The notes under the pieces: model-generated
The model's input: only the letters and a program-made list of their open reading frames with translations
Databases searched by the model: none
What the model was told of the DNA's origin: nothing
Shown here: positions 11,843 to 14,040 of the stretch, piece after piece
Position numbering within the stretch: position 1 is the stretch's first letter
Layout of the letters: each line of letters opens with the position of its first letter
From: Methyloversatilis discipulorum
GTDB taxonomy: Bacteria > Pseudomonadota > Gammaproteobacteria > Burkholderiales > Rhodocyclaceae
Assembly (NCBI RefSeq): GCF_018780585.1
Contig: NZ_JADMJL010000023.1
Coordinates: 1 to 32,027, forward strand
DNA length: 32,027 bases
Direction of reading: 5' to 3'
Program-made: the position numbers and the translations under genes

Positions 11843-12796
11843 ATGTCCGATCTGTCGCTGCCTGATGATGCCGAACCCGTCGAGCCCATCGAGGACGACG
11901 CGGCGATCAGCGACATCGACACGCCGGAAGCGGTGGTCGAGGCGGTCGAGCCCGCCGAGGCGGAGTTCTTCGGCGACGCGACCCAGCTCTACCTGAACGA
12001 GATCGGCGCCAATCCGCTGCTGACGCCGGAAGAGGAGCTGTCGCTGTCGCGCCGCGTGCGCCTTGGCGACTTCGAGGCCCGGCAGATCATGATCGAGCGC
12101 AACCTGCGCCTGGTCGTCAATATCGCCAAGCATTACCTGAACCGCGGCATGCCGCTGCTCGATCTGGTCGAGGAGGGCAATCTCGGCCTGATCCACGCGC
12201 TGGAGAAATTCGATCCCGAGCGCGGCTTCCGTTTCTCGACCTACGCCACCTGGTGGATACGGCAGAACATCGAGCGCGCGATCATGAACCAGTCGCGCAC
12301 GATACGGCTGCCGGTACACGTGGTGAAGGAGCTGAATCAGGTGCTGCGCGCAATGCGCAGCCTGGAGTCGCGCAGCGGTGGCGACTGCTGCGCCGAGGAC
12401 ATCGCGCAGCTGCTGGCCAAGCCGGTCGAGGACGTGCGGCACATCCTGTCGTTGAACGAACACACCGCCTCGCTCGACGCGCCGCTGGACATCGACCCCT
12501 CGCTGTCCATCGGCGAATCGCTGGCCGATGACGAGCAGGACGGGCCGGACGTGCAGATCCAGAACGCCGAGATCGGCTCACTCGTACACACCTGGATTTC
12601 CCAGCTCGGCGACAAGCAGCGCACGGTGATCGAGTACCGCTACGGCATCAATGGCTGCGAGATCGCCACACTGGAAGAGCTGGCCGAGCGACTGGGCCTG
12701 ACGCGCGAGCGGGTGCGCCAGATCCAGCTCGAAGCGCTGGCGCAGCTGCGCAAGATATTGCGGCGGGCGGGGGTGTCGAGGGACGTGCTGTTGTAG
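11843..12796 (+). CDS. rpoS: RNA polymerase sigma factor RpoS (sigma-38)
   Basis: Stationary-phase/general-stress sigma factor. The 317 residues comprise an acidic N-terminal tail (1-45), region 1.2 (DATQLYLNEIGANPLLTPEEEL), region 2 with the core-binding and -10-reading segment FDPERGFRFSTYATWWIRQNIERAI, region 3 (RTIRLPVHVVKELNQV) and region 4 with the -35-reading helix-turn-helix near TLEELAERLGLTRERVRQIQLEAL. Lack of the long region 1.1 and the position after nlpD separate it from RpoD. Followed by a 470-base gap containing structured repeats that would lie in the 3' end of its transcript if no terminator intervenes. I see no T-tract terminator directly after the gene. Confidence 0.97.
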   Translation: MSDLSLPDDAEPVEPIEDDAAISDIDTPEAVVEAVEPAEAEFFGDATQLYLNEIGANPLLTPEEELSLSRRVRLGDFEARQIMIERNLRLVVNIAKHYLNRGMPLLDLVEEGNLGLIHALEKFDPERGFRFSTYATWWIRQNIERAIMNQSRTIRLPVHVVKELNQVLRAMRSLESRSGGDCCAEDIAQLLAKPVEDVRHILSLNEHTASLDAPLDIDPSLSIGESLADDEQDGPDVQIQNAEIGSLVHTWISQLGDKQRTVIEYRYGINGCEIATLEELAERLGLTRERVRQIQLEALAQLRKILRRAGVSRDVLL

Positions 12797-12826
12797 ATTC
12801 CTGAGCGGTTTTCCCGCGCTTATCCC

Positions 12827-12855
12827 TTTAGGAGCGGTCTTCTGACCGCGACAGA
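12827..12855. repeat. REP-like palindromic element after rpoS
   Basis: TTTAGGAGCGGTC-TTCT-GACCGCGACAG contains a perfect 6-bp hairpin GCGGTC/GACCGC (12834-12839 with 12844-12849). The shape TAGGAGCGG...CCGCGAC closely resembles the GTAG-headed REP sequences scattered in intergenic regions of Pseudomonas and other proteobacteria, which are mobilised by REP-associated tyrosine transposases. Only one copy is seen in the window. Confidence 0.5.
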
Positions 12856-12981
12856 GCAGCTGATTCCGCGTCGTGTCGGGTTCAAGCCACATCCGCCGCG
12901 AATCGGCAAGGGTGGCGTGGTGCGCCGCTAGACCTGGATGGCTGGAGTGCCGCCCCAGCTTGGCTGACCGGTCCTTCGGAT
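12856..12981. other. Non-coding spacer before the tandem repeats
   Basis: First part of the 470-base rpoS-fliR gap after the REP-like element. No credible reading frame or terminator is seen. A weak hairpin GCTGG/CCAGC lies around 12941-12959, and the CCCCAG-GGCTGACC text just before the first full repeat may be a decayed repeat remnant. Confidence 0.4.
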
Positions 12982-13237
12982 GCGATCACGGGTATGCCTT
13001 CTGATGATGCCTGCGCCGATCGGACCACCCCAGGGCCGGCTTTGCATGGCCGGCCCGTTCGTCAGGTGCGATCAGGGGCAGGCTTTCTGCGTATGCCCGC
13101 GCTGATCGACCACCCCAGGGCTGGCCCTGCATGGCCAGCCCGTTCAGCGGGCGCGATCACGGGGATGCCTTCTGATGATGTCCGCACCGATCAACCAACC
13201 CAGGGCCGGCTTTGCACAGCCGGCCCGTTCGTCAGGC
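12982..13237. repeat. Three tandem ~85-bp structured repeats
   Basis: Units begin GCGATCA at 12982, 13068 and 13153 (86, 85 and 85 bases). All share GATGCC-like, GATC, ACC-CCCAGGG and CCCGTTC blocks. Each has a strong 8-bp hairpin with an 8-base loop: GGGCCGGC/GCCGGCCC at 13033-13056, GGGCTGGC/GCCAGCCC at 13118-13141 and GGGCCGGC/GCCGGCCC at 13203-13226. In unit 2 the C-G pair is replaced by T-A (13122/13137), a compensatory change, while loop bases vary freely. A weaker first hairpin may form between the flanking GATC blocks of each unit (GATCAG/CTGATC in unit 2). No coding or T-tract signal is seen. Function is unknown. Confidence 0.85.
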
Positions 13238-13254
13238 GCGAAGCAGTGCTTCGC
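13238..13254 (-). terminator. Hairpin just downstream of fliR
   Basis: GCGAAGC/GCTTCGC with a 3-base loop lies 12 bases beyond the fliR stop, inside a wider TCAGG/CCTGA inverted repeat. There is no T tract on either strand, so it may be a weak or rho-assisted 3' end rather than a true intrinsic terminator. It begins with the GCG that would open a fourth repeat unit. Confidence 0.4.
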
Positions 13255-13266
13255 GAAACCCCTGAC

Positions 13267-14040
13267 TCACCCCATTGCCAGCTGCGCTACGGTGCGCAGG
13301 CCGTAGTCGAACAGTTGCTGCAGCGCCGGGGCGAAGAAGGGCATCGACAGCAGCAGCATGACGAAACCGGCGATCAGCGTGACCGGGAAGCCGATCGCGA
13401 ACAGGTTCAACGTCGGTGCGGCACGGGTCAGTATGGCCAGGGCGATGTTCACCACCAGTAGCGCCGCGATCACCGGCAGCGCGAGCATCACGCCGGCCGA
13501 GAAGATGGTGCTGCCCCAGCGCGCGATCGCCATCCATCCGTTGGCCGGGAACAGGTCGGCGCCGACCGGCCACCATTCGAAGCTGTTGCCGATCACCGCC
13601 AGCAACATCAGGTGGCCGTTGATCGACAGGAAGATGAGCATCGCGAGCAGGCCGAGAAACTCCGAAATCACCGGCGACTGCGCGGCGTTGTCCGGGTCGT
13701 AGAACATCGCGAAGCCCAGACCCATCTGCAGACCGATCAGCTCGCCCGCCAGATCGATCGCGGTAAACACGACGCGCATCGAGAAGCCGAGCGCGATGCC
13801 GATCAGCATCTGCTGCAGCAACGCGAGCAGACCCGGCCACGAACCGACGATCAGTCCCGAGGGCGGCAGCGCGGGGATCAGCGCCAGCGTCATCGCCGCG
13901 CCGAAGCCCATGCGGATGCGCGCCGGAATCGCGCGATTGCTCAGGATGGGTGCGGTCGCGATCAGCCCCATGATGCGGGCCAGCGGAAACAGGAAGCCCG
14001 CCATCCACAGGTCGAGCTGGGCGGCGGACAGATTGATCAC
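13267..14040 (-). CDS. fliR: Flagellar export gate protein FliR
   Basis: Polytopic inner-membrane component of the flagellar type III export gate, assembling with FliP and FliQ into the helical FliP5-Q4-R1 pore. The 257 residues form about six long hydrophobic helices, with the family-typical LARIMGLIATAPILSNRAIPARIRMGFG near the N terminus and MQMGLGFAMFYDPDNAAQSPVISEFL in the middle (written here as QMGLGFAMFYDP). The start is GTG at 14040, one base after the fliQ stop, giving MINLSAAQLDLW. It is the last gene of fliOPQR; flhB does not follow, and the next gene is convergent rpoS beyond a 470-base gap. Confidence 0.95.
   Translation of the reverse strand: MINLSAAQLDLWMAGFLFPLARIMGLIATAPILSNRAIPARIRMGFGAAMTLALIPALPPSGLIVGSWPGLLALLQQMLIGIALGFSMRVVFTAIDLAGELIGLQMGLGFAMFYDPDNAAQSPVISEFLGLLAMLIFLSINGHLMLLAVIGNSFEWWPVGADLFPANGWMAIARWGSTIFSAGVMLALPVIAALLVVNIALAILTRAAPTLNLFAIGFPVTLIAGFVMLLLSMPFFAPALQQLFDYGLRTVAQLAMG

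Follow-up and report, generated by a model that had tools for sequence, protein, structure and literature searches.

The window analysed here, a stretch of 32,027 nucleotides from Methyloversatilis discipulorum (contig NZ_JADMJL010000023.1), carries the convergent genes rpoS and fliR. The 3' end of the gap between them (12797-13266) holds three copies of a hairpin, H1, about 85 bp apart and each preceded by a GATC block, together with one copy of a second hairpin, H2 (Table 1). Units start at the GCGATC of each block, with spacings of 86 and 85 bp; H1 is a perfect 8-bp stem in all three and forms 8-9 pairs on folding. H2 follows the third unit and reads, in order, TCAGG, CGCGAAGC, agt, GCTTCGCG, aaacc and CCTGA, with the pair G13231-C13266 outside; its end adjoins the fliR stop codon. 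Between rpoS and the array, at 12829-12852, inspection by eye revealed TAGGAGCGGTC-TTCT-GACCGCGAC, a GTAG-type REP-like hairpin.

Table 1. Features of the rpoS-fliR region, in window coordinates.
Feature	Position	Strand	Basis or remark
rpoS	11843-12796	+	sigma-70 regions 1.2, 2, 3 and 4 matched; name rpoS inferred
GATC block 1	12982-13021	+	start of unit 1; occupies the place expected of H2; stem putative
H1 hairpin, first copy	13033-13056	+	folded as RNA, -20.0 kcal/mol
GATC block 2	13068-13107	+	start of unit 2; same kind of block; stem putative
H1 hairpin, second copy	13118-13141	+	C-G to T-A swap at 13122/13137; fold -19.6
GATC block 3	13153-13192	+	start of unit 3; same kind of block; stem putative
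H1 hairpin, third copy	13203-13226	+	fold -19.2
Canonical H1+H2 element	13202-13269	+	match to model R1, 90.7 bits, E 6.9e-18
H2 hairpin	13231-13266	+	fold and covariation; inner stem CGCGAAGC/GCTTCGCG, outer stem GTCAGG/CCTGAC
fliR	13267-14040	-	open reading frame; name from synteny and the preliminary description; stop codon 13267-13269

A preliminary description of this DNA had recognized the three tandem units, the perfect hairpin in each and the matched replacement of C-G by T-A in the second (T13122/A13137), all of which stand. The tandem periodicity of about 85 bp is likewise real, but for the family as a whole the unit is H1+H2, of which H2 had been missed. The same description proposed a weaker second stem formed by the GATC blocks. 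Such a stem can be drawn, but among eight copies from four genomes none of its 13 pairs showed a double change, and its pairing stood at the shuffled level (80.6% versus 81.1%), if better than for slid partners (25-40%); we therefore dropped it as a conserved structure. As a dispersed repeat the block was ruled out, its three matches in the genome all falling inside the window. Searches of plasmid and phage collections with 12976-13275 returned no match.

Distribution and gene context of the H1+H2 element

BLAST with the region returned partial copies elsewhere in the same genome in which H1 is followed by H2 instead of a GATC block, the arrangement typical of the family; of the H1 copies in the window, two of three are followed by a GATC block. 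A covariance-type model built on a seed of 26 copies, a search that the preliminary description had suggested, produced 192 matches in 67 sources. The genome of the window contains at least 14 matches at E<=0.001, located in seven places. Within the genus 12 of 13 genomes were matched, each at least 7-70 times at E<=0.001 (lower bounds, as up to 150 candidates were scored per genome), and one, G006, yielded none. The element occurs in 25 of 300 genomes of the order, one of which (G162) has six copies of equal score, and in 4 of 369 genomes of a class sample, the genome of the window counted. The supposition that a repeat family with compensated stems extends beyond rpoS-fliR is thus confirmed: it is dispersed through the genus, and both hairpins covary. 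A search of open-licence full texts, sequence words included, found no prior description of the H1+H2 element, and within that literature we regard the family as not described before.

At rpoS-fliR itself, the nearest relatives as judged by FliR were Methyloversatilis and one Gammaproteobacteria MAG (eight loci in total). Six of the eight carry H1+H2 units and two (L024 and L026) do not; the number of units, a comparison also proposed earlier, differs between species, from one to five. Three other genomes examined closely at this locus (L141, L145 and L158) hold mixed arrays in which H1 is followed by either H2 or a GATC block.

Gene context was surveyed for 74 clusters obtained from the best 150 of the 192 matches in the 67 sources (66 loci with clusters; the clusters form 36 locus groups), with genes called by a codon-usage script; the genus regions came from the top-scoring of at least 402 matches, G009 contributing none and G005 three. 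Overlap with a predicted gene exceeds 25 nt in none of the 74 clusters, and 65 of 72 clusters sit downstream of a gene. By orientation, 32 are convergent, 31 codirectional sense, six codirectional antisense and one divergent, with one flank uncalled in the remaining four. Wherever a cluster contains several copies these lie head to tail (42/42). The right end of the element is followed by CCC in 67 of the 74 clusters, and in 25 of the 38 clusters with a downstream opposing gene the stop codon of that gene lies -4 to +10 nt from this end. Convergence being symmetric, orientation was judged from the ratio of 31 to 6 alone. The sense bias arises largely because copies nest in a single other repeat, class A, that has an orientation of its own; the context labels A, B and C derive from loose patterns and misplace some loci, among them L136, L143 and L155, which were grouped with REPs despite lying against a stop codon.

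Filled sites, empty sites and nesting

Comparison of filled with empty sites gave net insertions of 69-72 bp, some of them inside other repeats, including a REP hairpin. Between mreD and mrdA, the genome of the window carries two insertions, each of net 72 bp, that its close relative G002 lacks. Of these the second is exact: in the empty site CTGCGCTCG directly adjoins CCCTCGGGG, and in the filled site 72 bp stand between G and CCC, with target duplication absent; other filled/empty pairs are less exact. The mraY-murD junction is filled, by net 69 bp, in two of the 13 genus genomes, that of the window and G002. The surrounding repeat is present without the element in three (G004, G009 and G012, by eye), and eight lack both repeat and element, two of which (G001 and G011) keep a short remnant-like sequence (by eye). 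At rpoS-fliR, filled and empty relatives have diverged too far for their alignment to give a clean insertion point. The left end varies among insertions (TTCCACGG, CGGGAGGG or ACAGGG).

G010 contains a GTAG hairpin three times at 24 bp and once at 95 bp, the long copy having the element inside (net 71 bp) and adjoining a PF01797 gene; the element therefore nests in other palindromic repeats. In G162, two copies (L102 and L125) share a stretch of 274 bp at 92% identity, which means that the moved unit can exceed 72 bp.

Several further arrangements were seen around copies. At mraY-murD (L193 in G000, L201 in G004), about 60 bp from the start of murD are present twice, with a C/G-rich repeat, CCCCCACGCTCACTTCGTTCGCT...GGGGCGGCCC, between the two copies; this repeat also occurs without H1+H2. 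Outside the genus, at L108, L190 and L191 (around 1360-1640), the element adjoins tRNA genes and part of the tRNA is repeated on the far side; the tRNA was called in L108 and L190, and in L191 a tRNA-like sequence was seen by eye only.

The operon sites bear on the idea that the hairpins between rpoS and fliR form a bidirectional transcription terminator. Convergent genes and strong hairpins on both strands are what such a terminator would present. However, a scan of 12700-13350 for a hairpin followed by a T run, the mark of an intrinsic terminator, gave no candidate, in agreement with the preliminary description of the region as non-coding and free of T tracts. Moreover, copies lie inside operons such as mraY-murD and mreD-mrdA, where strong termination would harm, and we consider this explanation quite improbable.

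Covariation of the stems

Folded as RNA, the 300-bp region lies 6.2 SD (+ strand) and 3.4 SD (- strand) below dinucleotide shuffles. In the seed alignment of 26 copies 93.0% of cells are paired, against 82.2% after shuffling, and double changes are seen in 12 of 22 pairs. Among the best 150 of the 192 matches (135 distinct rows), pairing reaches 95.8%, in an alignment that was fitted to the model and so leans towards it; here 16 of 22 pairs show double changes, with 475 double-change cells compared to 175 in shuffled data and 8-59 for slid partners. Copies whose stems had mutated without compensation, an outcome that the preliminary description had singled out, were not found. Sequence outside the stems is also kept: the GTTC-type linker positions and GAAACC are invariant in the seed. 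In the orthologous last units of the rpoS-fliR arrays, the window has GAAGC/GCTTC as the inner stem of H2, whereas L141 and L145 have GGCGC/GCGCC; the outer stem varies between GTCAGG/CCTGAC and AGCGGG/CCCGCT.

Strong folding and covariation, together with the 31 to 6 sense bias and the position of H2 against the fliR stop codon, would suit a structured RNA or a 3' regulatory element of rpoS or fliR selected as RNA. Constraint on RNA of the + strand is expected to favor G-U (G.T) over A-C. Yet G.T and A.C cells number 21 and 30 of 2688 across the 20 inner pairs, and 41 and 63 of 2958 across all 22; with no G-U surplus on the + strand, RNA is not favored over DNA. The inner stem of H2 has 15 A.C and five G.T cells, a weak hint of pairing in RNA of the - strand. 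The dedicated rpoS/fliR element envisaged in the preliminary description is further at odds with the occurrence of the same element at many unrelated loci and with its absence at rpoS-fliR from two of eight relatives, just as the tandem structured RNA envisaged there is at odds with the 36 locus groups, the presence and absence of copies at orthologous sites and the lack of a G-U surplus; the orientation bias, as noted, comes largely from nesting in class A. Nor does any Rfam family reach its own cut-off here. Selection as RNA we accordingly regard as unlikely.

The che1 RNA (RF02935), which like the element has two G+C-rich hairpins and is recorded in Streptomyces (PMC8079986), matched 13176-13268 on the - strand over its full length (32.1 bits, cut-off 54.1). 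At 16 loci with other copies of the element it was not found at E<=0.01, and the match was judged to be chance.

Compensated stems can also be made by template-switch repair of quasi-palindromes, in which case the repeats would be passive debris free of structural selection. Two observations are as this process predicts: the 475 double-change cells far exceed the 41 G.T single-side intermediates of 2958, and whole inner stems of H2 have been swapped between orthologous end units (GAAGC versus GGCGC). Against it, the letters of loop and linker (GTTC-type, GAAACC) are kept and the order of the two hairpins is constant across genera, neither of which is expected of passive decay. We treat this account as a serious minority possibility.

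Relation to known repeats and mode of spread

REPs of the GTAG and CGTC super-families are reported as short intergenic palindromes, mostly between convergent or codirectional genes and often no more than 20 bp from gene ends, that even supply stop codons and whose stem changes are compensated (PMC3733652). The element resembles them in being short, palindromic, intergenic and close to gene 3' ends (one divergent case among 74 clusters), with compensated stems. It differs in consisting of two unlike hairpins in fixed order within one unit of 69-72 bp, whereas a REP is a single palindrome of 20-40 bp; in its 7-70 matches per genome (lower bounds); in its head-to-tail arrays; and in its occurrence without a detected Y1 transposase. 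The unpaired GTAG or CGTC tag that marks REPs was not seen at any conserved position among the 26 aligned seed copies, as examined by eye.

REPINs, described as the same REP in two inverted copies, partnered by a RAYT (REP-associated Y1 transposase), share with the element a mobile unit of two hairpins and tandem clusters that take in flanking DNA (PMC3116915). However, the sequences of H1 and H2 are unrelated, no inverted match between them exists in the window, and the association with a RAYT is weak. PATEs, described as ends-only derivatives of IS200/IS605, have a hairpin near each end, ends that may differ and no target duplication (PMC7290912), features that the element shares, the last of them at one clean site. 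PATEs have their ends in common with an autonomous IS and, on the expected side, an invariant motif of four or five nucleotides; the element has CCC after its right end (67/74), and among the matches to the model no parent IS with its ends appeared. Its separation from both families follows from defining features that were absent or not demonstrated. A further candidate considered, the integron attC site, is marked by R box and L box core sites and an integrase.

An origin of the element as a family of GTAG/CGTC-type REPs or REPINs, mobilized by a RAYT, would suit its extragenic placement at 3' ends near stop codons, as reported for REPs (PMC3733652). The RAYT-like domain PF01797 occurs in 11 of the 13 genus genomes, and the one element-free genome, G006, also lacks it. 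G005, however, has at least 25 element matches with PF01797 not detected. In the order, PF01797 was found in 18 of 24 element-bearing genomes versus 12 of the 21 element-free genomes listed in the order and class tables; the six element-bearing genomes without it include G162, on a single contig, in a search that divergent RAYTs could escape. Three of 18 PF01797 loci (L097, L098 and L100) have the element nearby at E<=1e-4, and this proximity is explained by ordinary GTAG/GTGG hairpins that flank the RAYT and carry or adjoin the element. With the association this weak, no tag in the seed, and H1 and H2 not inverted copies, we rejected the RAYT as mobilizer and think this origin highly unlikely. 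No mobilizing enzyme was found for the element; on these data a Y1 enzyme need not be involved, though it may be. L100 (951-2261) itself shows a RAYT-like PF01797 gene between GTAG hairpins, some with H1+H2 inside.

Taken together, the region is very probably a degenerate array in which copies of H1+H2 lie head to tail, H1+H2 being a non-autonomous mobile DNA element, palindromic and short (about 69-72 bp). The element is best read as a new family, REPIN/PATE-like and not a demonstrated member of either. The conserved object would be the hairpin in DNA, as a single strand or cruciform, used during copying and insertion. Insertion may often occur where a CCC run flanks a stop codon, or flanks or lies within another inverted repeat, after which arrays would grow by tandem duplication, possibly with flanking DNA; in the window, a GATC block appears to have replaced two copies of H2. 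More speculatively, and on balance doubtfully, the element could represent an undescribed class of mobile DNA, with a pair of unlike hairpins as its unit and other hairpins as preferred targets (REP loops or arms, C/G-rich inverted repeats, possibly tRNA D-arms), that moves without a dedicated Y1 transposase, perhaps through a host enzyme of replication or repair that acts on hairpins in single strands.

Any local effects on the neighboring transcripts would be secondary. Translation is reportedly affected by REPs no more than 15 nt from a stop codon, with ribosomes stalling (PMC12306157), and H2 starts right after the stop codon of fliR (- strand), so that on the fliR mRNA it could act like these hairpins, protecting the 3' end or slowing termination; by analogy, ribosome stalling could apply to fliR. 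The rpoS mRNA, should it read this far, would carry four hairpins.

Covarying stems beside rpoS need not imply a regulatory RNA. The RAYT/Y1 mechanism is linked to most of the palindromic mobile repeats known from bacteria. With its clean filled and empty sites, its two unlike hairpins, its nesting in REPs and its presence in genomes with no detected Y1 transposase, the H1+H2 element offers a small, testable case for another route by which hairpin DNA may spread.
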